Origin: Cellulomonas sp. P24
GTDB taxonomy: Bacteria > Actinomycetota > Actinomycetes > Actinomycetales > Cellulomonadaceae
Assembly: GCF_024704385.1 (NCBI RefSeq)
Contig: NZ_JAJDFX010000002.1
Location: 3,968,001 to 4,032,000 of the forward strand
Length of the DNA stretch: 64,000 nt
Direction: 5' to 3'
Shown here: in pieces, positions 8,717-33,033 of the stretch
Layout of the letters: each line of letters opens with the position of its first letter
Numbering within the stretch: the first letter of the stretch is position 1
Notes under the pieces: generated by a model
The model's database searches: none
What the model saw: only the letters and a program-made list of their open reading frames with translations
Told to the model about the DNA's origin: nothing
Made by a program: the position numbers and the translations under genes

Positions 8717-9445
8717 ATGGGAGATCGACGTGCTTCGGAGATGGGGGAGAACTACCTCCGGATCATCTGGAAGGCGCAGGAGTGGCCTGGCAGTTCCGTG
8801 TCTACGAACGAGATCGCCGAGACTTTGGCGGTAACGCCCTCGTCGGTGTCAGCCAATCTGAAGAAGCTCGCCCGGGACGGATTGATCGACTACGAGCCGT
8901 ATGGGCGCATCGGACTTACCCCCGCCGGTCACGAGATCGCCGTGATGGTTGTGCGTCGCCATCGCGTCTTGGAGACCTACCTGGTCGAGCGTCTAGGTCT
9001 CGGTTGGGATGAGGTGCATGTAGAGGCGCATGCCCTCGAGCATGCGGTGTCCGACCTTGTTCTGGACCGCATGGATGAGGTGCTCGGCCACCCTGCCCGC
9101 GACCCGCACGGAGACCCGATCCCTCGCTCCGATGGGAGCATCGAGCGCGCTGTGGGGTCCAGCTCCGCAGCGCGTCTGAGTGAGATCGACCCCGGCGCTC
9201 ACGGATGTGTCATTCGCATCTCGGATCACGAGCCCGAAATTCTGCGGTATCTCGAAGCGCGGGAGATCAACCTCGGGACCCGTATTCACCTGGATGAGAG
9301 GAACCTGGCAGTTGGTTCCGTGTTGATCTCCCATTCAAGCGTGACGGGTGAGCGCGTGGGGGATCGCGTCGAGGTCGCCATCGGCGCGGCCGATGCGGTG
9401 TGGGTCAGCGTCGACTCATACCCTGTCGACCCTCCTGGTCGCTGA
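8717..9445 (+). CDS. DtxR/MntR-family metal-dependent regulator
   Basis: This 242-residue protein has an N-terminal winged helix (about 10-70; EIAETLAVTPSSVSANLKKL), a dimerisation/metal-binding domain with a His/Glu-rich helix (VRRHRVLETYLVERLGL, then HVEAHALEHAVSD), and a C-terminal SH3/FeoA-like domain (about 165-240). The family represses metal uptake or controls export when Mn2+ or Fe2+ binds. As the first cargo gene of the transposon it may control the nearby Nramp or ATPase genes. The C-terminal domain resembles the DtxR/IdeR architecture more than the short Bacillus MntR. Confidence 0.9.
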   Translation: MGDRRASEMGENYLRIIWKAQEWPGSSVSTNEIAETLAVTPSSVSANLKKLARDGLIDYEPYGRIGLTPAGHEIAVMVVRRHRVLETYLVERLGLGWDEVHVEAHALEHAVSDLVLDRMDEVLGHPARDPHGDPIPRSDGSIERAVGSSSAARLSEIDPGAHGCVIRISDHEPEILRYLEAREINLGTRIHLDERNLAVGSVLISHSSVTGERVGDRVEVAIGAADAVWVSVDSYPVDPPGR

Positions 9446-9977: not shown

Positions 9978-12287
9978 TCAGTTGCCAGTGCTGCGTGCTC
10001 CGGTGGGCACGAGGCTGAACGCACCCTCTTCTTCCTGGGCGTTGTGCAGGCGTAGGACTGCGTACAGCCCGTAGAGCAGTCGTCGGAGCTCGACGACGTC
10101 TTCGGGTTGGACGGTGTCGTTGTCCAAGTTGGTAAGCAGTCGGCGCAGGCGGCTGACCTGGTGCTCGATTTCCGCGTGGGTGCGGCTGATCGCGGCGGTC
10201 GTGTCGGAACTGCCGAGGGCCCGGTCGACCAGCGGCACGAGCAGCGACTCGTCGGCCCGCTCGTGCGGGAGGAGTTCTCCCTCGAGACGGTCGAGCAGGG
10301 TGTGTGCCGGAGCGAGATCGCAGTTCTGCGTGGAGAGGGTGTCGGCCACGGCCCGGATCTGCTCGACGACGGCGAGCACCGCGTCGTGCTCGACCTTCAG
10401 TTCGTGCGCGATGGCGATGTCGGCTGACGGCATCGCGATCGTGTGGACCTTGCCGGGAAGGACGGCCCGCAGGGCGATGCCGATCGCGAGGATATCGATG
10501 ACTTCCTGGGTGACCGCACCGGCCGCCGGCGGGAGCAACCCGACCGCTGCTGCGACCATCGCGACCAGCGACAGGCCCATACCCACCAGGACCGCCTGCA
10601 GGGCGATGCGCTTGGACCGGCGGGCGATGAGGATCGCATCGGCGAGGGCATCGAGCCGGTCGACTGTCAGGACGACGTCGGCGGCCTCCGATGACGCGGT
10701 CGCTCCCCGCGCGGCCAGGGCCACGCCGACCCCCGCGGCGGCCAGCGCCGGGGCATCGTTCACGCCGTCACCGACCATGATTGTCGCGGCGTGCGCGGCC
10801 TCGGACTCGATCGCGGCGAGTTTGTCGGCCGGGTCGCAGTCGGCCAGCACGGTATCGACCCCGACGATCCGCCCGACGGTGTCGGCGATGTCGGCCCTAT
10901 CTCCGGTGACCAGGACGACCCGGCTGATGCCGGCCTCGCGCAACGTGCGGATCATTCGCGGCGCGTCGGACCGGATCGGGTCCTGGAGAAGGAACGCCCC
11001 CGCCGGTTCGCCGTCGATCGCGACGAACACGGTGAGTGAGCCGTCCAGGTCCGCGCGCCGGCGCACCTGACGCACCCATGCGGGCTGCGTGTCGCCGACG
11101 ATCCACTCGGCCTTGCCCACTTGCACCTCGTGGGTGCCGACCCGCCCGCGCAGCCCGTACCCGTGCTCTTCCTGCACGTTCTCGGGCATCTCCAGCGTCA
11201 GGCCGCGGCGGGTCGCTGCGGTGACGATCGAGGAGGCGAGGACGTGCGGGGATACCTGGTCGAGCGAGGCCGCCAGGCGCAGGACCTCGTCGGCGTCCAC
11301 CCGGTCGCTGGCTGTGACGACGTCGGCCAGGGTCGGCTGCCCCTGGGTCAGGGTGCCCGTCTTGTCGAAGAGCATGACGCGCCCGGCAGCCAGCCGCTCC
11401 AGCGCGCCGCCACCCTTGACGACAACACCGATGCGCGCAGCGCGGGACAGCCCGGACATGATCGCGATCGGTGCCGCAAGCAGCAGCGGGCACGGCGTCG
11501 CGACCACCAGAACGGCGACCGCGCGCACCGCGTCCCCGCTGAGTACCCACGCCACGCCAGCTAGCACCAGGGTGAGCGGGACGAAGACAACCGCGATCCG
11601 GTCAGCCGCGCGCACGAACGGCGCCGACGACGCCTGCGCTTGCTCCACGAGGCGCACCACACCCGCATAGGTGGACTCCGCAGCCACCGAGGTCGCGACG
11701 AGGTCGATCGGCGGCCCGGCGTTGACCACCCCGCTGCGCACTTCATCCCCTGCCGGTCGCTCGACCGGCAGGGACTCCCCCGTCAGCGCGGCTTCGTCCA
11801 GGATCCCACCCGACACGAGGCGCCCGTCGACCGGAACGACCTCCCCCGTGCCCACCAGGATCCGGTCCCCCCTGCAGACCTCGTCCACAGGGACCTCGAC
11901 GACACTGCCCTCCAGCCGGCGCCGGGCCGTGCGCGGGGCCCGCTCTACCAGCAGGCTCAGCTCGCGCCGCGCCCGTGCCGCCGCCCTCGCCTCAAGCAGT
12001 TGGCCCGAGGCGAGCATCACCGTGATCATCGCGCCTGCGAACGGCTCGTCTACCCACAGGGCACCAGCCAGTGCGAGCAGCGCGATGACGTCGACGCTCG
12101 GCTGACGGCGCCGGATCGCGCCCGCCGTCCACGCGATCGAGAACGCCAGCCCGAGTACCGTCCCGGCAACCCACAGCGACTCCGAGAACGGCATGGCACC
12201 CAGCAGCCACGCCGCGCCGCCCCCGAGCAACAGCACGGTGGAGGAGACGAAAAGCAGTAGCTGCACACGACTGCGAATCCACGTCAT
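9978..12287 (-). CDS. P1B-type metal ATPase with C-terminal hemerythrin domain (P1B-5/Nia-like)
   Basis: The 769-residue pump has TGES at about 169-172, the membrane metal site TPCP at 264-267, the phosphorylation motif DKTGTLTQ at about 308, and the hinge GDGVNDAP. The last ~150 residues form a hemerythrin-like bundle: HELKVEHD, LLPHERADE, THAEIEHQ, RLHNAQEEE. TPCP plus a C-terminal hemerythrin domain defines the P1B-5 class, whose Sinorhizobium member Nia exports Ni and Fe. No N-terminal CxxC metal-binding domain is seen. The likely role is export of Fe2+, Ni2+ or Co2+, with the hemerythrin domain as an iron or oxygen sensor (family knowledge). The upstream region 12288-12460 contains an inverted TTGTGG/CCACAA pair around 12335-12375. 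Confidence 0.9.
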   Translation of the reverse strand: MTWIRSRVQLLLFVSSTVLLLGGGAAWLLGAMPFSESLWVAGTVLGLAFSIAWTAGAIRRRQPSVDVIALLALAGALWVDEPFAGAMITVMLASGQLLEARAAARARRELSLLVERAPRTARRRLEGSVVEVPVDEVCRGDRILVGTGEVVPVDGRLVSGGILDEAALTGESLPVERPAGDEVRSGVVNAGPPIDLVATSVAAESTYAGVVRLVEQAQASSAPFVRAADRIAVVFVPLTLVLAGVAWVLSGDAVRAVAVLVVATPCPLLLAAPIAIMSGLSRAARIGVVVKGGGALERLAAGRVMLFDKTGTLTQGQPTLADVVTASDRVDADEVLRLAASLDQVSPHVLASSIVTAATRRGLTLEMPENVQEEHGYGLRGRVGTHEVQVGKAEWIVGDTQPAWVRQVRRRADLDGSLTVFVAIDGEPAGAFLLQDPIRSDAPRMIRTLREAGISRVVLVTGDRADIADTVGRIVGVDTVLADCDPADKLAAIESEAAHAATIMVGDGVNDAPALAAAGVGVALAARGATASSEAADVVLTVDRLDALADAILIARRSKRIALQAVLVGMGLSLVAMVAAAVGLLPPAAGAVTQEVIDILAIGIALRAVLPGKVHTIAMPSADIAIAHELKVEHDAVLAVVEQIRAVADTLSTQNCDLAPAHTLLDRLEGELLPHERADESLLVPLVDRALGSSDTTAAISRTHAEIEHQVSRLRRLLTNLDNDTVQPEDVVELRRLLYGLYAVLRLHNAQEEEGAFSLVPTGARSTGN

Positions 12288-12480: not shown

Positions 12481-12798
12481 TCAGTCGCGCAGGTCGAGGA
12501 TGTGTTCGACGGCTTGGTGGACGAGGGTGACGATGTGGGGGTCGGTGACTCGGTAGAGCAGGCGTCGGCCATCGCGGCGTGCGTCGATCCATCCGGCCAG
12601 GCGCAGCTTGGCCAGGTGCTGGCTGATGCCGGCCTTGGTCCCGCCGACTGCGGCGACGAGCGTGGTGACGTCGACCTCGTCGTTGGACAGGATCCACAGC
12701 AGGTGCAGGCGGCCGGGGGCGCTCAGGAGAGCGAAGACTTCGGCGGCGTCCTCGAGGACGTCACGAGCCGGCGCGTCGCGGCTTGTCGGCTGGGTCAT
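12481..12798 (-). CDS. ArsR/SmtB-family metal sensor, copy 1
   Basis: This is a 105-residue winged-helix repressor with the recognition helix in GGTKAGISQHLAKLRLAGW. Near the C-terminus the spacing D-x-H-x10-H-x2-D (in TDPHIVTLVHQAVEHILD) matches the alpha-5 metal site of SmtB/CzrA/NmtR proteins, so it should be released from DNA by a divalent metal. There are no sensor cysteines. The ATG at 12798 follows GGAGACAG. It is divergent from the Nramp gene, and the shared intergenic palindrome GTTGCGCAAC at 12835-12844 is the likely operator. Confidence 0.9.
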   Translation of the reverse strand: MTQPTSRDAPARDVLEDAAEVFALLSAPGRLHLLWILSNDEVDVTTLVAAVGGTKAGISQHLAKLRLAGWIDARRDGRRLLYRVTDPHIVTLVHQAVEHILDLRD

Positions 12799-12828: not shown

Positions 12829-12876
12829 ACTATAGTTGCGCAACCACTTGACAGTCCATGTACGGCGCGCTCTACT
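12829..12876. promoter_or_regulatory. Divergent arsR/Nramp promoter with GTTGCGCAAC operator
   Basis: On the plus strand TTGACA (12848-12853), a 17-bp spacer and TCTACT (12871-12876) can start the Nramp transcript. On the minus strand TGGACT, 18 bp and TATAGT (12834-12829) can start arsR. The perfect palindrome GTTGCGCAAC (12835-12844) lies between and overlaps the arsR -35/-10 region. The same layout occurs at 28676-28724. Confidence 0.75.
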
Positions 12877-12941
12877 TCTCGTGTCGACCGGACGTCTCTG
12901 CGCGCCATGGCCGCGCCGGACCCGAAGAGGAGGTGAGGGGT

Positions 12942-13016
12942 ATGAATCCCGGACATAGTTGCCCGCCCAGCGATCTCCCTTCATCGCCGGTCGGCCCGCG
13001 TCTCGGAGAGCTGTAA
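12942..13016 (+). CDS. Candidate leader peptide (24 aa) of Nramp copy 1
   Basis: A GAGGAGGTGAGG Shine-Dalgarno region precedes ATG at 12942. The 24-codon frame begins MNPGHS and continues CPPSDLPSSPVGP, with seven prolines in all, ending in TAA. It lies about 60 nt after the predicted transcription start and about 150 nt before the Nramp start. The second Nramp leader (28600-28526) has an upstream ORF of exactly the same length with the same first six residues, while the rest of the leaders has diverged. Proline-rich leader peptides such as MgtL and MgtP of enterobacteria sense low Mg2+; a similar role here is inference. Confidence 0.65.
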   Translation: MNPGHSCPPSDLPSSPVGPRLGEL

Positions 13017-13163
13017 CCCGCTTCCGTCACCATCAGGTCGGCCTCGCACGTGGCTCCTCGGCGTTGAGGATGTCCGCACCAGGTCGCGCGCCAGCATGCG
13101 TGCTCGTCCCCTCTTCCTTCTGCGCCGCCCTCGGGGTGCGCGCTGCTGCGCTTGGAGCATGTG

Positions 13164-14815
13164 ATGACCGCTGAGACGACTGGCCGCAGCGCGGTTCTCG
13201 ACAGCGCCCACGAGGGCGACATCCAGGGTGCGTTCGGCACGATCCGCCAAGGCGATGTCGCGCCCCGCACCCGGACCTCGATGCGCCTGAAGACACTGCT
13301 GGCGGTCATCGGTCCCGGCCTGATCGTGATGGTCGGCGACAACGACGCCGGTGCGTTCGGCACCTACACCCAGGCTGGTCAGAACTACGGCACACGCATG
13401 CTGTGGACGCTGCTGCTCCTGGTTCCGGTGATCTACGTCAACCAGGAGATGGTCCTGCGCCTGGGCGCGGTCACAGGCGTGGGACATGCACGGCTGATCC
13501 TGGAGCGGTACGGGAAGTTCTGGGGCGCGTTCAGCGTGATCGACCTGTTCGTCCTGAACGCGCTGACGATCGTGACCGAGTTCATCGGCATCAGCCTCGG
13601 TCTGACCTACCTGGGCCTGCCGAAGATCCCGGGCGTCTTCGCCGCCGCCGTCATCGTGATCGCGTCGGTCTCCACCGGGTCGTTCCGACGCTTTGAGCGC
13701 GTCAGCCTGTTCCTCGTCGCTGGCTCCATGACGCTGATCCCGATCTTCCTGGCGGTCCACCCGCCGGCCGGGCAACTCGTGCACGACTTCGTCGTCCCGG
13801 GCCTGCCCGGGGGTCAGAGCTGTCCACCGTGATGCTGCTGATCATCGCCATCGTCGGGACGACCGTCGCGCCGTGGCAGCTGTTCTTCCAGCAGTCGTAC
13901 CTCATCGACAAGCGCATCACCCCCCGGTTCATCCGCTACGAGCGGGTCGACCTGTGGATCGGGATCCTCTTCGTGGTCGTCGGCGCCGGCGCGATGATGG
14001 CGTTCACCGCGACGGCGTTCGCCGGCACGCGCGGGCAAGGCAACTACACCGACGCGCTCGGCGTCGCCCAGGGGCTCGCGGCCCACGCCGGCCACTGGGC
14101 CGGGATCCTGTTCGCGATCGCCCTCATCGACGCGTCGATCATCGGTGCAGCCGCCGTGGGCCTGTCGACGTCCTACGCGCTCGGCGACGTGCTGGGCCTG
14201 CGCCACTCGTTGCACCGGCGCCCGTCAGAGGCCAAAGCGTTCTACGCGATCTTCGCCGGTCTGCTGCTCGTGTCCGCGGTGATCGTGATCATTCCGGGCA
14301 GCCCGCTGGGCCTGCTGACCGAGGGCGTGCAGACGCTCGCGGGCGTGCTGCTTCCCTCGGCCACGGTGTTCCTGCTGCTGCTGTGCAACGACCGCGGCGT
14401 GCTCGGACCGTGGACCAACGGGCGCGGCATGAACATCTTCAGCGGCGTCATCATCGCCGTGCTGGTCATGCTGTCCACGGTCCTGACCGCCAGCGTGCTG
14501 TTCCCCGGCATCACCTCGGTCCAGATCATCGCGATCTTCGTCGTCGGAACGGTCCTCACCGTTGTCGCCGGGGCGTACCTGGCCTGGACCGCACTTCGCC
14601 ACCGGAACAAGGCGCCAACTGTTCCGGTCGATCCCGCGCGCCCCGCCGAGCCGGAGCTCGACCGCGCCACCTGGCGGATGCCTCCGATCGCACTGCTGAG
14701 CAAGCCCGTCATGAGCGCCGGTAGCCGGACCGGACTGGCGGTCTTGCGCGGCTACCTCCTGGTGGCTTCCGCACTCGTCGTCGTCAAGGTCGTCCAGCTC
14801 GCCATGGGCTCTTGA
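13164..14815 (+). pseudogene. Nramp-family metal transporter, copy 1, single-base frameshift
   Basis: The frame from ATG 13164 (GGAG 7 bases upstream) runs for about 220 residues and then leaves frame near 13810-13815, reaching a stop at 13832. The remainder of the transporter continues from about 13829 to 14815 in another frame. Compared with copy 2, one G is missing from the run CCCGGGGG at 13807-13814; adding it restores GGSELSTVMLL. Both halves are otherwise well conserved. The site residues match copy 2 (DNDAGAF in helix 1, APWQ in helix 6). It could be a recent loss, a sequencing or assembly error in a G run, or slippage-corrected expression. Confidence 0.8.
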
Positions 14816-14852: not shown

Positions 14853-16109
14853 ATGACCAGAGTGACCGAACCCCAGCCCGCCCCCACGGGCCAGCTCCCC
14901 GGAGTCTTGCTGCTGTCCGCACTGCTGCGCCGGACGGCCGTCGACGGTGCCGGTCACGGCCTGGGCCGGCTCAGCGACATCATCGTGCGCCTGCGCGAGG
15001 GCGACTACCCCGCAGTGACCGGCTTGGTCGCCCACGTCGGAGGTCGCGACCTTTTCGTCCCCGCCAACGAGATCCTCGCCTGGGACGACCAACGCCTCGA
15101 GCTCGCCTCGGCCCGCCTGGACCTGCGGCCCTTCGAGCGCCGCACCGGCGAGGTCCTGCTGCGCCGCGACGTCCTGGGCCACCGACTGGTCGACGTCGAA
15201 GAACCCGGCCTGGTGACCGCGCACGACGTCCGGCTCTCCCGCACCGGCGACGGATGGGCCGTCAACGCGGTCGACATCCACCCGCGGGGACTACTGCGCC
15301 GGCGAGGGGGTCACACCTGGCGCGACTGGTCGGGGTTCGAGGCCCTGATCGGCCACGACGGCTCATTGCCCGCACGCACACCGATGGGTGGGCTGCACCG
15401 GTTGAAGCCTGCCGAGCTCGCGGACATCATCGAAGACGCCTCCGACAGTGAGCAGCACGAGCTGCTCACCCGCGTCCATGCCCACCCCGAGCTTGAGGCC
15501 GACGTCTTCGAAGAGCTGGACGAGGACCAGGCCTCCGACCTCCTCGAAGCCCGCACAGACCCGCAGATCGCCGACATCCTGGGACGGATGCGCGCCGATG
15601 ACGCCGCCGACGCGCTGCTCGACCTGCCCCAAGAGCGGCGCCTGAGCGTCCTGGGACTGCTCCCGGACATCCAGCGGCAGAAGATCACCGTCCTGCTCGG
15701 CTACCAGGAGACCACCGCCGGGGGTCTGATGAGCGTGGACTACCTGCTGCTGCCCGCCACGACCACCGTCGCGGAAGCGCTCGGTGCCGTCCGGGCGGCC
15801 ACGCAGATGCAGCACGAGGCCATCGTCGTCGTCTTCTGCCACGACGAGAACCAGCACGTCGTCGGGGCAGTGGGCCTGGTCGCCCTGGTCCAGGGCGACC
15901 CGCGTGCCACGCTCGACGTGTTGGCCGAACCCGACCCCGTGCACGTGCACCCCGACGCCGACCTCACCGAGATCACGCTGGCCATGGCCGACTACAACCT
16001 CCTGGTCCTGCCGGTCCTGGACCACGATGACCACCTCATCGGGGTCCTGACCAGCGACGACATCCTCGAAGCCGCCATCGCACCCGAATGGCGCCGACGG
16101 CGCGGGTAG
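14853..16109 (+). CDS. PRC-barrel / MgtE-N / CBS protein, Nramp partner, copy 1
   Basis: The 418-residue protein has an N-terminal PRC-barrel-like part (about 15-175; GHGLGRLSDIIVRLREGDYP, LRRDVLGHRLVDVE), an MgtE-N superhelical domain (about 180-285; ELEADVFEELDEDQASDLLE, RMRADDAADALLDLP) and two CBS domains (about 290-415). It lacks the five-helix membrane domain of MgtE, so it is a soluble or peripheral protein. In MgtE these cytosolic domains bind Mg2+ and gate the channel. Encoded directly after the Nramp gene in both modules, it is a plausible metal-sensing regulatory subunit or a partner of it (inference). Confidence 0.85.
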   Translation: MTRVTEPQPAPTGQLPGVLLLSALLRRTAVDGAGHGLGRLSDIIVRLREGDYPAVTGLVAHVGGRDLFVPANEILAWDDQRLELASARLDLRPFERRTGEVLLRRDVLGHRLVDVEEPGLVTAHDVRLSRTGDGWAVNAVDIHPRGLLRRRGGHTWRDWSGFEALIGHDGSLPARTPMGGLHRLKPAELADIIEDASDSEQHELLTRVHAHPELEADVFEELDEDQASDLLEARTDPQIADILGRMRADDAADALLDLPQERRLSVLGLLPDIQRQKITVLLGYQETTAGGLMSVDYLLLPATTTVAEALGAVRAATQMQHEAIVVVFCHDENQHVVGAVGLVALVQGDPRATLDVLAEPDPVHVHPDADLTEITLAMADYNLLVLPVLDHDDHLIGVLTSDDILEAAIAPEWRRRRG

Positions 16110-25446: not shown

Positions 25447-26697
25447 TCAAGCGCGCCTGCGGCGCCAGTGCTCGGGGATGGTCGCTTCCAGGACGTCGTC
25501 GATGGTCAGGACCCCGATGAGGTGGTCGTCGTGGTCCAGGACTGGCAGGACGAGGAGGTTGTAGTCGGCCATGGCTGCGGTGATCTCGGGGAGGTCGGCG
25601 TCGGGGTGCACGTGAACCGGGTGGGGGTCGGCGAGGTCGCCGATCAGCGCGCGCGGGTCGTTCTGCAGCAGGGTGATCACGCTGACGGCGCCCACGGTGC
25701 GCCGGTCGTCGTCGTGGCAGAACGTGATGACGATGGCTTCCTGCTGCAGGTGGGTCGCGGCTGCGATGGCGCGCAGCGCGTCGGCGACCGTGGTGGTCGT
25801 TGCCACGGACAGATACTCGACGCTCATGAGACCACCGGCGGTGGCTTCTTGGTAGCCGAGCAGGATGGTGATCTTCTGGCGTTGGGTCTCCGGCAGGAGC
25901 CCCAGCACGTCCTGGCGGCGGTCCTGGGGCAGGTCGAGGAGGGCGTCCGCGGCGTCATCGGAGCGCATGCGTGCGAGCACGTCGGCGACCTGGGCGTCCG
26001 GGAGGGCTTCGAGCAGGTCGCTGGCCTGGTCTTCGTCGAGTTCTTCGAACACGTCGGCTTCGAGATCGGGGTGGGCGTGGACGCGGCTGAGCAGCTCGTT
26101 CTGCTCGTTGTCGGAGGCCTCTTCGATGAGGTCGGCGATCTGGGCCGCCTTGAGGTGGCGCAGCCCGCCGAGCCGGGTGCGCGAGGGAAGTGAACCGTCG
26201 TGGCCGATCAGGGCCTCGAAGCCGCGCCAGTCGCGCCAGGTGTGCCCGGTGCGGCGCCGCAGCAGTCCGCGTGGGTGGATGTCCACCGCGGTGGCGACCC
26301 AGGTCTGGCCGGTGTGGGTGAGCTGGACGTCGTGCGCGGTGACCAGGCGCGGTTGTTCGACGTCGATCAGCCGGTGACCCAGGACGTCGCGGCGAAGCAG
26401 GACCTCCCCGGTTCGCCGTTCGAACGGTCGCAGGTCCAGGCGCGCGGAGGCCAGCTCGAGGCGTTGGTTGTCCCAGGCGAGGATCTCGGTGGCGGGGATG
26501 AACAGCTCGCGCCCGCCGATCTCGGCGACCAGCCCGGTGACGATCGGGTAGGAGTCGTCACGCAGGCGCACGATGATGTCGCTCAGGCGTCCGAGGCCGT
26601 GACCTGCGCCGTCCACCGCGGTGCGGCGCAGCAGCGCTGACAGCAGCAGGGTGCCGGTCAGGTGGGGGGCCGGGTAAGGATCGGTCACATCGGTCAT
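25447..26697 (-). CDS. PRC-barrel / MgtE-N / CBS protein, Nramp partner, copy 2
   Basis: This 416-residue paralogue of the protein at 14853-16109 has the same domain order: PRC-barrel-like part, MgtE-N (DLEADVFEELDEDQASDLLE; RMRSDDAADALLDLP) and CBS pair (GGLMSVEYLSVATTTTVADA; LPVLDHDDHLIGVLTIDDV). There is no membrane domain. The ATG at 26697 is preferred to that at 26706, because AAGGA lies about 8 bases upstream and the N-terminus MTDVTDPYPAP then aligns with copy 1 (MTRVTEPQPAP). It follows the Nramp gene by about 40 bp in one operon. Confidence 0.85.
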   Translation of the reverse strand: MTDVTDPYPAPHLTGTLLLSALLRRTAVDGAGHGLGRLSDIIVRLRDDSYPIVTGLVAEIGGRELFIPATEILAWDNQRLELASARLDLRPFERRTGEVLLRRDVLGHRLIDVEQPRLVTAHDVQLTHTGQTWVATAVDIHPRGLLRRRTGHTWRDWRGFEALIGHDGSLPSRTRLGGLRHLKAAQIADLIEEASDNEQNELLSRVHAHPDLEADVFEELDEDQASDLLEALPDAQVADVLARMRSDDAADALLDLPQDRRQDVLGLLPETQRQKITILLGYQEATAGGLMSVEYLSVATTTTVADALRAIAAATHLQQEAIVITFCHDDDRRTVGAVSVITLLQNDPRALIGDLADPHPVHVHPDADLPEITAAMADYNLLVLPVLDHDDHLIGVLTIDDVLEATIPEHWRRRRA

Positions 26698-26737
26698 GGG
26701 GCTCATCCTTGTCGATGTCGGGCGGTCGCGGGAGCGG

Positions 26738-28381
26738 TCAGTGGCCGAGGGCGAGCTGGACGACCTTGACCACGACCAGGGCCGAGGCCACCAGCAGGTA
26801 CCCGCGCAGGACCGTCAGGCCGGTGCGGTTGCCGGCGCTGAGGGTGGGCCGGGTCAGCATCGCGAGCGGGGGCATCCGCCAGGTGGCTCGGTCCCGGGCG
26901 GGTTCGGGCGCCTCGGTGGAGGCGGCGGGTGTGGCGTCCTTGGGGTGGCGTCCGCTCCAGGCCAGGTAGGCGCCGGCCGCGAGGCTCAGGGCGGTGCCCA
27001 CTGCCAGGATGACCAGGATCTGGCCGGAAGTGATCTGTGGGAACAGCACGCTGGCGGTCAGGATCGTCGAGAGCATCACCAGGACTGCGATGACGGCGCC
27101 GGCGAAAACGTTCATGGCGCGCCCGTTGACCCACGGGCCCAGGACGCCGCGGTCGTTGCACAGCAGCAGCAAGAAGACGGTTGCTGAGGGCAGCAGGACT
27201 CCGGCGAGGGTCTGCACCCCCTCGGTCAGCAGGCCCAGCGGGCTGCCGGGGATGATGACGATCACCGCGGAGACCAGCAGGAGCCCGGCGAAGATCGCGT
27301 AGAAGGCCTTGGCCTCGGACGGTCGACGGTGCAGGGAGTGGTGCAGGCCGAGCACGTCGCCCATCGCGTAGGAGGTCGACAGCCCCACGGCTGCGGCGCC
27401 GATGATCGAGGCGTCGATCAGCGCGATCGCGAACAGGATCCCGGCCCAGTGCCCGGCCGTCGCGGCCAGGCCCTCGGCGATGCCCAGGGCGTCGGTGTAG
27501 TTCCCGTGCCCGGGGGTCCCGGCGAACGCGGCCGCGGAGAACGCCATCATCGCGACCGCGCCCACCACGACGAACACGATGCCGAGCCACAGGTCGACCC
27601 GCTCGTAGGGGATGAACCGCGGCGTGATCCGCTTGTCGATGATGTACGACTGCTGGAAGAACAGCTGCCAGGGCGCGACCGTCGTGCCGACGATCGCGAT
27701 GATCAACAGCATCACCGTGGACATCTGCGAGCCGGCTGGCATGCCCGGGACCAGGAAGTCACGGGCGACCTGACCCATCGGCGGGTGGACGAGAAGGAAG
27801 ATGGGGATCAGCGTCAAGGAGCCGGCGACCAGGAGCAGGCTGACGCGCTCGAACCGGCGGAACGACCCGGTGGACACCGAGGCGATGATCACCAGGGCCG
27901 CGGCGATGACCCCGGGGACCTTGGGCAGGCCCAGGTAGGTCAGTCCGAGGCTGATGCCGATGAACTCGGTGACGATGGTCAAGGCGTTGAGGATGAACAG
28001 GTCGATGACGCTGAACGCTCCCCAGAACCGCCCGTAGCGCTCCAGGATCAGCCGGGCGTGCCCGACGCCGGTGACGGCACCCAGGCGCAGCACCATCTCC
28101 TGGTTGACGTAGATGACGGGGATCAGCAGCAGCAACGTCCACAGCAGTCTCGTGCCGTAGTTCTGGCCCGCCTGGGTGTACGTCCCGAAGGCACCGGCGT
28201 CGTTGTCGCCGACCATCACGATCAGACCGGGGCCGATGATCGCGAGCAGGGTCTTCAGCCGCAGCGAGACGCGGTTGCGCGGGGCGACGTCACCTTGACG
28301 GATCGTGCCCAGCGCACCCCGGATGTCCCCGAGGTGCGCGCTGTCCAGGACGGCGTCGCGGTCCGTGGTGTCGTTCGTCAT
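26738..28381 (-). CDS. Nramp-family divalent metal transporter, copy 2 (intact, possibly Mg2+-type)
   Basis: This 547-residue integral membrane protein has a ~45-residue cytosolic N-terminus and about 11-12 helices. Helix 1 reads GPGLIVMVGDNDAGAF, where classical Nramp has DPGN: Asp61 is kept but the Asn position is Ala64. Helix 6 reads VGTTVAPWQLFF, where classical Nramp has MPH: Met is Ala236 and His is Trp238. Loss of the methionine ligand is a hallmark reported for Nramp-related magnesium transporters, so Mg2+ rather than Mn2+ uptake is plausible (inference). The ATG at 28381 has GGAG upstream. The partner MgtE-N/CBS gene follows. Confidence 0.85.
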   Translation of the reverse strand: MTNDTTDRDAVLDSAHLGDIRGALGTIRQGDVAPRNRVSLRLKTLLAIIGPGLIVMVGDNDAGAFGTYTQAGQNYGTRLLWTLLLLIPVIYVNQEMVLRLGAVTGVGHARLILERYGRFWGAFSVIDLFILNALTIVTEFIGISLGLTYLGLPKVPGVIAAALVIIASVSTGSFRRFERVSLLLVAGSLTLIPIFLLVHPPMGQVARDFLVPGMPAGSQMSTVMLLIIAIVGTTVAPWQLFFQQSYIIDKRITPRFIPYERVDLWLGIVFVVVGAVAMMAFSAAAFAGTPGHGNYTDALGIAEGLAATAGHWAGILFAIALIDASIIGAAAVGLSTSYAMGDVLGLHHSLHRRPSEAKAFYAIFAGLLLVSAVIVIIPGSPLGLLTEGVQTLAGVLLPSATVFLLLLCNDRGVLGPWVNGRAMNVFAGAVIAVLVMLSTILTASVLFPQITSGQILVILAVGTALSLAAGAYLAWSGRHPKDATPAASTEAPEPARDRATWRMPPLAMLTRPTLSAGNRTGLTVLRGYLLVASALVVVKVVQLALGH

Positions 28382-28525: not shown

Positions 28526-28600
28526 CTAAGGCAATCGGGACAGGCGGCCGTGTTCGAGCGGCAGGGACGTGCGGGGCAGGCGACTATGTCCGGGATTCAT
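28526..28600 (-). CDS. Candidate leader peptide (24 aa) of Nramp copy 2
   Basis: ATG at 28600 is preceded by GAGGGGGTGTGGGAC. The 24 codons start MNPGHS, contain five prolines and several arginines and leucines, and end in TAG at 28526-28528. Length and first 18 nucleotides are the same as in the leader ORF at 12942, while the remaining codons differ strongly. Downstream in the leader are two perfect hairpins (CGTCCTG/CAGGACG and GCGTGAC/GTCACGC) before the Nramp ribosome-binding site. Confidence 0.65.
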   Translation of the reverse strand: MNPGHSRLPRTSLPLEHGRLSRLP

Positions 28601-28675
28601 GTCCCACACCCCCTCAGGGCCTGGCGCGAACACGGCGCGCAGTCGTCGCGATCAGCACGCGTGATCGACAGCGCC

Positions 28676-28724
28676 AGTACAGCGCCCCGACCCCTGGACT
28701 GTCAAACCATTGCGCAACTATGCT
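28676..28724. promoter_or_regulatory. Divergent Nramp/arsR promoter with TTGCGCAA operator, copy 2
   Basis: Plus strand: TGGACT, 18 bp, TATGCT (28719-28724) for arsR copy 2. Minus strand: TTGACA (28705-28700), 18 bp, TGTACT (28681-28676) for Nramp. ATTGCGCAAC (28709-28718) lies between, matching the palindrome of copy 1. The arsR start at 28732 is only 7 bp after the -10 box, so that mRNA is probably leaderless. Confidence 0.7.
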
Positions 28725-28731
28725 CATGGCG

Positions 28732-29112
28732 ATGTCACCGAACAGGGGACCGATAAGCGAGGCGGCCGGACGGAGTCTGCCGGACCGTGACGTCCTCGAT
28801 GACGCTGCCGAGGTCTTCCAACTGCTCAGCGCTCCCGGGCGGCTCCAGCTGCTGTGGGTCTTGTCCAACGATGAGGTGGACGTGACCACGCTCGTGAGCG
28901 CCGTGGGCGGGACCAAGGCCGGCGTCAGCCAGCACCCCGCGAAGTTGCGTCTTGCCGGATGGCTCGACGCACGCCGGGACGGACGACGCGTCCGATACCG
29001 GGTCGCGGACCCGCACATCGTCACGTTGGTCCACCAGGCCGTCGAACACGTCCTGGACCTCCGAGCCGGCCCGGCGCTGGCGAGCGCCCCACAGTCGCCC
29101 GATCGAGACTGA
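28732..29112 (+). CDS. ArsR/SmtB-family metal sensor, copy 2
   Basis: The protein is 126 residues and winged-helix. The alpha-5 site spacing D-x-H-x10-H-x2-D is kept (ADPHIVTLVHQAVEHVLD). In the recognition region it reads GGTKAGVSQHPAKLRLAGW, where copy 1 has SQHLAKL. A proline in this helix may weaken DNA binding. The ATG at 28732 is chosen for its 7-bp distance from the -10 box; in-frame ATGs at 28720 and 28726 overlap the promoter. It is divergent from the Nramp gene. Confidence 0.8.
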   Translation: MSPNRGPISEAAGRSLPDRDVLDDAAEVFQLLSAPGRLQLLWVLSNDEVDVTTLVSAVGGTKAGVSQHPAKLRLAGWLDARRDGRRVRYRVADPHIVTLVHQAVEHVLDLRAGPALASAPQSPDRD

Positions 29113-29238
29113 GACCCTACGCGCCAGGACCGCCCTCGGAGGGAGGCGCGAGATCCTCGGTTCGAAACGGTGGGACCGTACGCCGCTGATGGGCAGCAGG
29201 ACACGTGTGCAAGGCCGATCGAGACAGGAAGAACCGAC

Positions 29239-30030
29239 ATGGCGCGCCGCAAGTCTCTCGACGTGAAGAAGTTGGCCGTCAAGGGCGACGTGGAAGGTCT
29301 CATCAGGGCGCTGAGCGGTGCGCAGGACTGGCATGCGCGTTTCGACGCGGCCGGCGCGTTGGGCGCGGCCGGTGACGCACGAGCTGTCGATGCGCTGATT
29401 CGTGCGATCGGCGACGAGGACCCGTTCGTACGCGTGGCCTCGGTCGGAGCTCTCGCGGAGATCGGCGACGCGCGGGCGGTCACGGCGTTGATCGGTGCGC
29501 TCAGGGGCGAGGATGCCCGGGTGCGTGAGCGCGCGGCCCGCGCCCTGCCACTATTCGACATCTCACCGATCGGCATTCTGGTCGCTGCGCTGGACGACGA
29601 GGACGGTCTGGTGCGCGAGCGCGCGGCGCGCACGCTCGAGGTCCTTGCCGACGAGCGAGCCGTCGAACCGTTGATCGCGGTGCTCGGCGACCCGGAGGAG
29701 CCAGTGCGCGACGGCGCGATCAGCGCCCTTCGAGCGATCGGTGCCCCGGCTATGGGGCCGCTGGTCAAGGCCATGGGCGACCAGAACCCTCGCGTTCGCA
29801 GGTTCGTCGTGGGCGCCCTTCCGGTGGTTGGAGGCCGCGAGGCTGTTCTGCCGCTGATCGACGCGCTCGCCGATCACGACGCCTCGGTCCGCCGGGCCGC
29901 TGCGAGAGGCCTGCACACCGTCGGGGACGTCCGTGCCGTCGAGGCGCTCACCCGTGCCGCCGGCGACGCGGACGCGACCGTGCGCCGGGTGGCGGCAAAG
30001 ACCCTCCGAACGTTGACCGGCGCCGCCTAG
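29239..30030 (+). CDS. HEAT-repeat protein
   Basis: The 263-residue protein is built of about eight 30-31-residue HEAT/PBS-lyase-type repeats. Examples are DARAVDALIRAIGDEDPFVR, ERAVEPLIAVLGDPEEPVRD and GREAVLPLIDALADHDASVR. There is no signal peptide and no catalytic motif; such alpha-solenoids bind partner proteins. The ATG at 29239 has AGGAAG upstream. It sits between arsR copy 2 and the mgtA leader on the same strand, so it may belong to the metal-response cluster, but its partner is unknown. Confidence 0.85.
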   Translation: MARRKSLDVKKLAVKGDVEGLIRALSGAQDWHARFDAAGALGAAGDARAVDALIRAIGDEDPFVRVASVGALAEIGDARAVTALIGALRGEDARVRERAARALPLFDISPIGILVAALDDEDGLVRERAARTLEVLADERAVEPLIAVLGDPEEPVRDGAISALRAIGAPAMGPLVKAMGDQNPRVRRFVVGALPVVGGREAVLPLIDALADHDASVRRAAARGLHTVGDVRAVEALTRAAGDADATVRRVAAKTLRTLTGAA

Positions 30031-30181
30031 GCCATCTCGGCCAACGGCCCGAACGTTGACGTGGGCAGCGGCCCGAACGAGCCGAGGACACGGCATCCCC
30101 GGCGCCCGGAATGCCGCAAGGGGCTAGCGTTCCAGGCAGCGTGCGTGAGTTGTCGCGCCGTCCAGGTGTGGGAGACCGACG

Positions 30182-30394
30182 ATGTCGATCGTGCGAAGGG
30201 AGCTCGGCAGGTCGCCGGATGGGTTCCGACGGACCTCCGACGGTGCGCCGGAACCGGCCCGGCTCCGGCCGGTGGGGCGCGTCGCGGTCGCGCCTGTTCT
30301 TGCGTCCGTCGATCGGCCCGGCCGTGCTTCGAGGTGGGTTGCGGCGCGTGCACGCGCCGTCCCGCTGGGCACGATCTCGGCGGCTCGGGAGTGA
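30182..30394 (+). CDS. Candidate upstream ORF (70 aa) overlapping the mgtA start
   Basis: ATG at 30182 has GGGAG about 9 bases upstream. The product is Arg/Pro-rich (SPDGFRRTSDGAPEPARLRP) with no membrane segment. Its TGA at 30392-30394 overlaps the proposed GTG start of mgtA (GTGA), giving direct translational coupling. MgtA mRNAs of enterobacteria carry the Pro/Asp-rich leader peptide MgtL that senses Mg2+; a similar control here is only inferred. It could also be a chance open frame in GC-rich leader DNA. Confidence 0.4.
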   Translation: MSIVRRELGRSPDGFRRTSDGAPEPARLRPVGRVAVAPVLASVDRPGRASRWVAARARAVPLGTISAARE

Positions 30395-33033
30395 GGGCTG
30401 TCTCAGTGTCGCCAACGCCAGCTGGACCAGCGGCCGGGATCCTCGCGGCCGCGGCGGTGCCAGCCGCCGACGTGGCGCGGGGACTTGGCGTCGTGGAGGC
30501 CGATGGTCTCAGCGGTGCGGAGGTCACGAGGCGCCGGGTGCTGTTCGGCCCGAACGCGGTCTCCTCGCATCGCGCCCGGCTGTGGCCCGTGCTCTGGCAT
30601 CAGCTGCGCTCGCCGCTGCTCGGCCTGCTGCTGGTCGCGGCGGGTGCGTCGTTCGTCGTCGGCGAGCGGACCTCGGCCGTCATCATCGCGGTGATCGTCG
30701 GGCTGTCCGTCGGGCTCGGTTTCGGGAACGAGTACCGCGCCGAGAAGGCCGCCGAGGCGCTGCACTCCCAGATCAGCCACACGGCCGCGGTCATCCGCGA
30801 CGGGCGTCCGGGGATGGTGGACGTGACCACGCTGGTCCCGGGCGACGTGGTCGAGCTCCGCCTGGGTGCGATCGTCCCGGCCGACATCCGGCTGAGCGAG
30901 GTGCAAGGGTTGGAGTGCAACGAGTCGGTGCTGACGGGTGAATCGCTCCCCGTCACCAAGAGCACAGACCCGGTGCCGCCCGGCACCCCGCTCGCCGAGC
31001 TGTCCGGGTGCGCGTTGATGGGCACCGTCGTGCAGGCCGGTAGCGCCCTGGGAGTCGTGGTCGCCACCGGAGCCCGCACGGAGTTCGGCGCGATCGCGGC
31101 CGGGCTGCGCACCCACCAGCTCGACACCGAGTTCCAGGTCGGGCTCGGCCGGTTCTCGCTGTTCTTGGTGTACGTGGCGGGCGCGCTGACCGCGTCGATC
31201 TTCGTGATCAACGTGGCGCTGCACCGGCCGATCCTCGACGCTCTGCTGTTCTCCTTGGCGATCGCGGTCGGGATCACCCCGCAGCTGCTCCCGGCTGTCG
31301 TCTCGGCAAGTCTCGCCGCGGGGTCGCGTCGGATGCTCCGGCGCAAGGTGCTCGTCAAACGCCTCGTCTGCATCGAGGACCTCGGTGATGTCGACGTGCT
31401 GTTCACCGACAAGACCGGCACCCTCACGCAAGGACGGCTCGCCTTCGACAGGGCGGTACCCGTGGGCGACACCACACCCGACGTCGTGCTGCGGTGGGGT
31501 CTGCTGTGCACCGAAGGGGGCGCGCAGGACGAGCACGCGGTCGGCGGGAACCCGCTCGACCAGGCGCTGTGGGAGTCGCGTGCCGCGGCCGGCGGGCGAG
31601 ACATCCTGGCCGGTTACACGCGGCTGGAGGTGCTGCCGTTCGACCACGAGCGACGCATGGTCTCCGTGCTCGTCCGCGACCCGGCGGGCGAGCTGACCCT
31701 GATCACCAAGGGGGCGCCGGAGACGGTCGTCGATCGCTGTGCCGACGTGCCCGCCGCAGCCCAGACCCTGCTGGAGGCGGAGTTCGCGGCCGGCAACCGG
31801 GTCGTCGCCGTGGCGACCCGACCGGCCACCAGCGCGCAGGCGCCGACGCCCGACGACGAGCACGACCTGCACCTGGTGGGCCTGCTCGTTTTCCTGGACC
31901 CGCCGAAGGAGGACGCAGCCGAGGCGCTGCGCCGGCTCGCGGCCTTGGGCATCGCGGTCAAGATCGTCACCGGCGACAACGCCACCGTCACGGGCAAGGT
32001 CTGCCGCGACCTGGGGCTGGACGAGGGCGGCGTGCTGACCGGCGCGGACCTCGACGCGCTCGACGACACGCAGCTCGCTGAGGCGATCGCGCGCACCACG
32101 GTGTTCGCCCGGGTGACCCCCGAGCACAAGGCCCGGATCGTGCGCGCCCAACGACGAAGCGGCGGCGGGGTCGCGTTCCTCGGCGACGGGGTCAACGACG
32201 CCCTCGCACTGCACGCCGCCGACGTGGGGATCTCGGTCGATCAGGGCGCCGACGTCGCCAAGGATGCCGCCGACGTGATCCTGCTCGAGAAGAACCTGCA
32301 CGTGCTCGCCGACGGTGTCGCCGAAGGACGCCGCATCTTCGCCAACACCATCAAGTACGTCCTGATGGGCACCTCGAGCAACTTCGGCAACATGTTCTCC
32401 GCGGCGGGCGCGTCGCTATTCTTGCCCTTCCTGCCGATGCTGCCGTCCCAGATCCTGCTGAACAACCTGCTGTACGACACGAGCCAGCTGGCCATCCCCA
32501 CCGACAACGTCGACGAGGAGCAGGTGCGCCGCCCGGCACACTGGGACATCGCGTTCATCCGGCGCTTCATGCTCTACTTCGGACCGCTCAGCTCCGTGTT
32601 CGACTTCGGCACCTTCGCGATCATGCTGTGGGTCTTCCACTCCGGGGCCACGCAGTTCCGCTCCGGGTGGTTCGTGGAGTCCCTCGCCACCCAGACCCTG
32701 GTCATCTTCGCGATCCGCACCCGCCGCGTCCCGTTCTTCCGCAGCCACCCGAGCCTGCCGATCGTCCTCGCCGCGCTCGGAGTGGTCACCGTCGGCACCC
32801 TGCTGCCAGCGACTCCGCTCGCCCACACGCTGGGATTCGCGCCGCTACCTGCGGGCTTCTTCGCCGCGCTGGCGGGGATGGTCATCGCCTACCTCGCCCT
32901 GATCGACACGGGCAAGCGGATCTTCTACCGCGTCGCACCGGCCGTCGCACCCGCACCGCGGCAGTACAGCCACCACCGGCACGTGCGCCGCCGCGCGGCC
33001 TACTTCAGCACCGCCACCCACGCACCAGGCTGA
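30391..33033 (+). CDS. mgtA: Mg2+-transporting P-type ATPase (MgtA/MgtB family)
   Basis: This is a P3B-type ATPase of about 880 residues. Motifs are TGESLPVTK (about 188), the phosphorylation site DKTGTLTQG (about 340), TGDNATVTG, GDGVNDALALHAADVGISVD, and the helix-6-region signature QILLNNLLYDTSQLAIPTDNV, which is diagnostic of the magnesium pumps. It has about ten membrane helices. The start is uncertain between GTG 30391 and GTG 30406; 30391 is favoured for the GTGA overlap with the upstream ORF. It imports Mg2+ at the cytoplasmic membrane, and its neighbours support a Mg2+ homeostasis cluster. Confidence 0.9.
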   Translation: MRAVSVSPTPAGPAAGILAAAAVPAADVARGLGVVEADGLSGAEVTRRRVLFGPNAVSSHRARLWPVLWHQLRSPLLGLLLVAAGASFVVGERTSAVIIAVIVGLSVGLGFGNEYRAEKAAEALHSQISHTAAVIRDGRPGMVDVTTLVPGDVVELRLGAIVPADIRLSEVQGLECNESVLTGESLPVTKSTDPVPPGTPLAELSGCALMGTVVQAGSALGVVVATGARTEFGAIAAGLRTHQLDTEFQVGLGRFSLFLVYVAGALTASIFVINVALHRPILDALLFSLAIAVGITPQLLPAVVSASLAAGSRRMLRRKVLVKRLVCIEDLGDVDVLFTDKTGTLTQGRLAFDRAVPVGDTTPDVVLRWGLLCTEGGAQDEHAVGGNPLDQALWESRAAAGGRDILAGYTRLEVLPFDHERRMVSVLVRDPAGELTLITKGAPETVVDRCADVPAAAQTLLEAEFAAGNRVVAVATRPATSAQAPTPDDEHDLHLVGLLVFLDPPKEDAAEALRRLAALGIAVKIVTGDNATVTGKVCRDLGLDEGGVLTGADLDALDDTQLAEAIARTTVFARVTPEHKARIVRAQRRSGGGVAFLGDGVNDALALHAADVGISVDQGADVAKDAADVILLEKNLHVLADGVAEGRRIFANTIKYVLMGTSSNFGNMFSAAGASLFLPFLPMLPSQILLNNLLYDTSQLAIPTDNVDEEQVRRPAHWDIAFIRRFMLYFGPLSSVFDFGTFAIMLWVFHSGATQFRSGWFVESLATQTLVIFAIRTRRVPFFRSHPSLPIVLAALGVVTVGTLLPATPLAHTLGFAPLPAGFFAALAGMVIAYLALIDTGKRIFYRVAPAVAPAPRQYSHHRHVRRRAAYFSTATHAPG

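Follow-up and report, generated by a model that had tools for sequence, protein, structure and literature searches.

What is the function of the short open reading frames (ORFs) that lie, each behind a strong ribosome-binding site, in the leaders of two Nramp-family transporter genes of Cellulomonas sp. P24? The question is raised by the window (the whole 64,000-nucleotide stretch of DNA analyzed here). A first-pass annotation had regarded these upstream ORFs (uORFs) as a conserved MNPGHS leader, present before both Nramp genes and perhaps sensing Mg2+ in the manner of MgtL.

Two transcription units and their leaders

Each unit consists of a divergent ArsR-type gene, an operator (ATAGTTGCGCAAY), a putative promoter, the uORF, Nramp and the gene for an MgtE_N + CBS protein; the two units (12.5-16.1 kb and 25.4-29.1 kb) point toward each other. 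The uORFs, MNPGHSCPPSDLPSSPVGPRLGEL (copy 1, 12942..13016, + strand) and MNPGHSRLPRTSLPLEHGRLSRLP (copy 2, 28526..28600, - strand), are 24 sense codons long plus stop, and their Shine-Dalgarno (SD) sequences are read as GAGGAGG (12927..12933, +) and GAGGGGG (28609..28615, -), confirming that part of the annotation. An ORF of 15-40 codons with SD and ATG is found in 0.6% of shuffled leaders. When the two leaders are aligned, codons 1-6 (the first 18 nt) are 100% identical, an exact shared run that exceeds those of all 500 shuffles (maximum 13). The remainder has indeed diverged, with identities of 43% in codons 7-24, 48% in the spacer and 54% in the 5' part of the leader; the operator and promoter stretch stands at 70%. 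The peptide of copy 1 contains six prolines (P3, P8, P9, P13, P16 and P19), not the seven originally counted. Position 7 is Cys in copy 1 and Arg in copy 2, and the first acidic residue comes at position 11 and 17, respectively. Both Nramp genes carry the ORF, as had been claimed, but the genome holds three close paralogs, of which these are two.

Nramp copy 1 (13164..14815, +), whose frame is broken near 13.8 kb by a 1-nt shift when compared with its homolog L006, is followed by MgtE_N + CBS protein copy 1 (14853..16109, +); the NRMT-like Nramp copy 2 (26738..28381, -), with TTVAPWQ on helix 6, has MgtE_N + CBS protein copy 2 beside it (25447..26706, -). The motif criteria for NRMTs derive from EleNRMT, an NRMT Mg2+ transporter of the SLC11/Nramp family (PMC8806188). 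The window Nramps share with NRMTs the replacement of the binding-site Met by Ala and of His by Trp: their helix-6 TTVAPWQ is a TxxA motif devoid of Met, in agreement with the TxxA/T of NRMTs. They differ in helix 1, where DNDAGA, aligned by eye to DPGN, reads DAGA (DxxA) instead of the DxxG of NRMTs. Evidence for Mg2+ as the substrate, namely the M-box before many orthologs and the MgtE_N/CBS partner, is good but indirect, and the window Nramps are predicted to be Mg2+-type (NRMT-like) transporters.

Nramp copy 1 occupies two overlapping frames (split near 13829), whereas the Cellulomonas denverensis homolog L006 is intact; being one base short relative to this near-identical sequence, it has suffered a recent lesion (pseudogenisation) or an assembly error. 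The segment 12600-16200 is nearly identical to the C. denverensis contig (354/360 sampled 20-mers), and among 198 order-level genomes the host alone has a close Nramp match. Around the units lies a metal-homeostasis island (8717-9442, 9978-12287, 29170-30030 and 30061-33033) encoding an iron/manganese-dependent repressor family protein, a HEAT-repeat protein and two P-type ATPases, of which one includes a hemerythrin domain. The near-identity to C. denverensis may reflect mobility of the island or a host that is very close to that species.

The palindromic operator ATAGTTGCGCAAC (12832..12844, +), presumably bound by an ArsR-type protein, adjoins the putative promoter (12848..12876, +), picked by eye and by alignment of the copies: TTGACA (12848-12853), 17 nt, TCTACT (12871-12876). 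A consensus promoter scan did not recover it. The copy 2 operator, ATAGTTGCGCAAT (28709..28721, -), is a pattern match, one of only two within the 64 kb. The divergent regulator of copy 1 (12481..12798, -) has a Pfam HTH_5 domain; its copy 2 counterpart (28732..29112, +; start uncertain) is ArsR-like by eye, by likeness to copy 1, and has no Pfam match.

Neither leader contains an intrinsic terminator, and neither folds better than its shuffles (z +1.61 and -0.65). The untranslated spacer between uORF and Nramp (13017..13163, +), also free of intrinsic terminators, is richer in C than in G and would allow Rho loading. In the minimum free energy fold of either copy the SD is paired to codons of the uORF; an SD-sequestering hairpin within the uORF was nevertheless rejected as a general feature, since mean SD pairing over 69 leaders is 0.66 against 0.60 for shuffled sequences (mean p 0.40). 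No conserved attenuator fold or SD switch rises above shuffles.

Relatives of the uORF and the M-box

The third host Nramp paralog (L002) has a complete M-box riboswitch (118 bits) upstream; an SD and the uORF MNEGHSPRLLLSPAAL follow the riboswitch at a distance of 58 nt. By the covariance model of the M-box (ykoK, RF00380), both window leaders lack the riboswitch (copy 1 has none up to E=1). The host paralogs thus provide a natural experiment, in which the window leaders have a uORF without an M-box and L002 has a uORF with one. M-boxes lie upstream of Nramp in 20 of the 40 loci scanned; 20 mostly proteobacterial loci have none, and the Burkholderiaceae Nramps have no upstream Rfam riboswitch. 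A short SD-preceded ORF is often situated between M-box and Nramp, or upstream of Nramp where there is no M-box. With M-boxes upstream in many uORF-bearing actinobacterial relatives, the third paralog included, the link between the Nramp leader and Mg2+ is stronger than was originally claimed.

Related short uORFs, before Nramps of this clade and also before other M-box genes, are found in Micrococcales, in Streptomycetaceae and in a Mycobacterium-like genus, as well as, there without an M-box, in Burkholderiaceae. The ORF is therefore present in many other genomes, and, judged by these sequence relatives, it is one of a wider set of leader ORFs before Mg2+-type transporters in Actinobacteria and Burkholderiaceae. 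Relatives include MSPGHSCPPADLRSQPLGTLSAML (L008), VSESHSPRFRLSTMTA (L009), MKPGDSCPLS... (L010), MDCSSPGHSCPCPRLPSYTSGMR (Streptomyces, L047), MNDGHKPSLPSRFP... (Arthrobacter, L018) and MSPGDSPYPNSVLSRSGSGIPSAA (L103, the Mycobacterium-like genus; 24 codons). M-boxes of the latter genus are also accompanied by MSSSDSPDRYPGFVSSRS... behind the SD box GGAGGTGAGGGAC; this uORF matches the description of mycobacterial uORF2/Rv1805A, an identification that is probable from its position, its SD and its proline at position 7. Burkholderiaceae Nramps of this clade have comparable uORFs, of common or convergent origin, in which an SD is followed by MDSPSRPYP... (GAC AGT CCG AGT CGA), MPDSDSYPLCR..., MTDPDPSRSS..., MSDSDPEPLCP... 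or MPDPEPCSCP..., and at L060, where two Nramps stand in tandem, a separate uORF, MLDSDSYPLW..., precedes the second. M-box leaders of other actinobacterial groups yield MESDPGHRC, MDDDPRSSKP, VPEDGERPSR and MDDVPHHSNG. A uORF of 24 codons is also seen in L008 and in Nramp leaders of the mycobacterial type; elsewhere lengths are 12-44 codons (70 in L007). Conservation is wide in the first residues only, and the C-termini vary.

A uORF of this kind is missing from certain M-box genes, those of the MgtE type among them, and from several Nramp leaders. The loci are phylogenetically non-independent, several of them coming from MAGs, and the uORF set was gathered partly through its motif. A pattern search of the host genome for further copies gave 0 matches with a pattern demanding four purines at a fixed spacing, which the known copies themselves do not have. 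At L103, L104, L093 and in Ralstonia/Paraburkholderia (L052, L053), the space between the short uORF and Nramp holds another small ORF, longer than the first (about 50-70 aa; one example is MAFVVTHRLSSGSMLRAGRQFAARLGARSALTPQERANLYVSRMPIAVVTA...).

Reading frame and the early AGU codon

What the relatives have in common is a codon pair, NAY-AGU (Asp/His/Asn-Ser), which in copy 1 is CAT AGT at codons 5-6 (12954..12959, +). As a conserved leader, MNPGHS therefore fares only in part as proposed: related uORFs are widespread, but MNPGHS is a local form of them. When AYAGT sites up to 48 nt downstream of an SD-preceded ATG or GTG were gathered irrespective of frame, the AGT was in frame with the start in 65 of 66 distinct leaders, and every start-to-AGT spacing from 2 to 11 codons was represented. 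Counting each distance once gives a probability of (1/3)^10, about 2e-5; over all leaders it is 4e-30, a figure that ignores relatedness. When any Ser codon was allowed, the search again found AGT at the core of the leaders judged genuine, with the variants CAT AAA (L018) and CAT CAT (L051, which carries CAC AGT earlier). AGT accounts for 3.7% of Ser codons in the window genes. With one AGT per ORF (the core) excluded, 32 of the 79 further Ser codons within codons 2-13 are AGT, compared with 0 of 67 later ones (Fisher 8e-11). Frame and codon identity are thus both kept, which speaks for a constraint on decoding.

Between copy 1 and L008, the closest independent homolog, all 6 single-base codon changes are synonymous (0 nonsynonymous), where 27% synonymous would be expected (p about 4e-4). 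Applied to the Streptomyces set (16:43) and the mycobacterial set (168:175), the test gives a weak or equivocal outcome. Together, the in-frame AGU, its early bias and the 6:0 changes indicate a translated frame that is conserved beyond what a DNA or RNA element would entail, the alternative that the first-pass annotation had named as a refutation. The window ORFs are evidently translated, and their coding nature is strongly supported by these comparisons. The literature searched describes no AGU-codon leader and no M-box uORF outside mycobacteria. Pro-Ser-Arg encoded as CCN AGT CGA recurs in the uORFs of L035, L052, L136, L200 and others, so that a second rare codon (CGA) follows AGU there.

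Modes of action and known leader systems

The absence of an M-box, of a terminator and of better-than-shuffle folding, taken with the C-rich spacer, leads us to infer ArsR-type control of the window promoter combined with a ribosome-dependent gate at the uORF. The pattern suggests that ribosomes on the uORF help to decide transporter production, and we lean toward a translated regulatory uORF that acts as a ribosome-gated attenuator of a Mg2+-type Nramp operon and belongs to a Ser(AGU)/Pro-rich set of uORFs that includes uORF2/Rv1805A. An ArsR-type repressor would control the promoter; slow decoding or destabilization at NAY-AGU and Pro within the first ~12 codons would set the behavior of the ribosome, which would determine whether Rho terminates the leader transcript or RNAP reads through into Nramp, with low Mg2+ yielding more transporter. 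This reading is favored because the AGT is in frame and biased toward the start, the copy 1-L008 changes are synonymous and codons 1-6 are identical; because M-box and uORF coexist in L002, half of the scanned loci have an M-box, and the mycobacterial-type uORFs, for which M-box gating and Rho termination have been demonstrated (PMC12810186), correspond in SD box and position; and because uORFs also occur in Burkholderiaceae, the Nramp site is NRMT-like, an MgtE_N/CBS partner is present and the spacer is C-rich. Counted against it are the missing M-box of the window leaders, the lack of a conserved fold or SD switch, the lack of early acidic residues, the DxxA of helix 1, the weak synonymous-change tests in Streptomyces and mycobacterial sets, and a uORF set of non-independent loci assembled partly by motif. 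Of the leader-peptide attenuator originally proposed, the translated ORF before a Mg2+-type Nramp stands; a conserved attenuator fold and an intrinsic terminator are missing.

The uORF might sense nothing, merely coupling translation to transcription as a Rho shield or re-initiation device, with the signal supplied by the M-box where there is one and by the ArsR-type repressor in the window. For the mycobacterial leader, Mg2+ sensing has been placed in the M-box, which gates the initiation region of a translated uORF, and Rho-dependent termination has been found (PMC12810186); the window leaders, which have kept the uORF beside an ArsR operator while lacking an M-box, would also fit, as would the variable C-termini. 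Such a passive gate gives no reason why a rare codon pair should be fixed close to the start, and we consider it rather doubtful. The converse, that the uORF is itself the Mg2+ sensor, read out by ribosomal decoding of the early NAY-AGU codons, is a comparably tentative proposal: it would define a class of leaders that functions whether or not an M-box is present, across Actinobacteria and Burkholderiaceae, and is distinct from the acid-driven MgtL.

Conservation could instead lie in RNA, the initiation region and first codons pairing with an anti-TIR segment of a switch and the peptide being incidental. Alternative anti-TIR pairing at the M-box of Mycobacterium tuberculosis (Mtb) pe20 is backed by reporter mutants (PMC12810186), and the SD-codon pairing in the folds of both copies points the same way; that the start-to-AGT spacing shifts by whole codons with the frame kept, that SD pairing in the 69 leaders is not above shuffles and that the copy 1-L008 changes are synonymous make this improbable. 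Still less probable is a peptide that acts as such, for instance on the transporter or in trans on the ribosome, even with peptide-level conservation between copy 1 and L008 and an M-box-independent homolog, Rv0115A, in Mtb (PMC12810186): wide conservation stops after the first residues, lengths range over 12-44 codons, peptide function would not need Ser to be encoded by AGU, and rv1805A expression produced no visible biofilm phenotype (PMC12810186). It is hardly credible that the 18-nt identity represents a second ArsR operator (CATAGTTGC resembling the promoter operator ATAGTTGCGCAA; copy 1 carries ACATAGTTGCCC within the uORF and, beside its promoter, TATAGTTGCGCAA) or survives from a recent duplication. 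Elsewhere the leaders have diverged, and the in-frame motif is also found where the operator is absent, in M-box leaders (L002, Streptomyces, mycobacterial type) and in Burkholderiaceae; the operator was accordingly rejected as the cause of the identity.

A uORF that was reported as specific to mycobacteria, and without a known role, thus resembles leader ORFs of several actinobacterial families, with similar ORFs before the same transporters in Burkholderiaceae. With a codon rule this simple (an in-frame NAY-AGU within the first ~12 codons), synonymous mutations can probe directly what Rv1805A-like uORFs do, and the paralogs with and without an M-box separate two outcomes: a uORF that by itself confers a Mg2+ response is a sensor, otherwise it is a gate. 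The uORF would also help to recognize, from upstream sequence, Nramp genes of the Mg2+ type, which are liable to be taken for manganese transporter genes.

MgtL, at whose EPDP motif ribosomes dissociate in low Mg2+ (PMC11282234), and MgtQ, a comparable leader ORF of Enterobacteriaceae (PMC8092293), resemble the window copies in being short ORFs that lie ahead of a gene for Mg2+ transport, a predicted one in the window. MgtL-type leaders are further marked by a Rho-dependent terminator under the control of leader translation; on this point the window shows a C-rich spacer and no intrinsic terminator. The acid/proline-rich character attributed to the leader by analogy with MgtL does not extend to the window N-termini, although it does to some relatives (MDDDPRSSKP, MESDPGHRC, MTDPDPSRSS and MPDPEPCSCP); certain Burkholderiaceae and actinobacterial uORFs start with acid/Pro runs (DPDP, DPEP, DDDP, ESDP). 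Since early acidic residues are lacking in the window peptides, destabilization of the MgtL type does not follow from their sequence; the AGU core, for its part, is not found in MgtL, and attenuation here is conjectural. The M-box (RF00380), found before the third host paralog and many orthologs, is missing from both window leaders. Strict membership in the Rv1805A or MgtL family is therefore not claimed, for want of M-box, Pro7 and early acidic residues.

The peptide of uORF2/Rv1805A, described as mycobacteria-specific, has a conserved N-terminus and Pro at position 7 (PMC12810186). The window copies differ from it in having no M-box upstream (L002 does have one), no Pro7, His in place of Asp before Ser, and an ArsR-type operator. 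They share with it a short ORF whose N-terminus is conserved and which is immediately preceded by a strong, likewise conserved SD, the SD box GGAGGTGAGGG, comparable starts (MSSxDSP or MSPGDSP there, MNPGHS in the window), the existence of M-box-independent copies, and the placement of a short uORF between a promoter or riboswitch and a Mg2+-linked gene.
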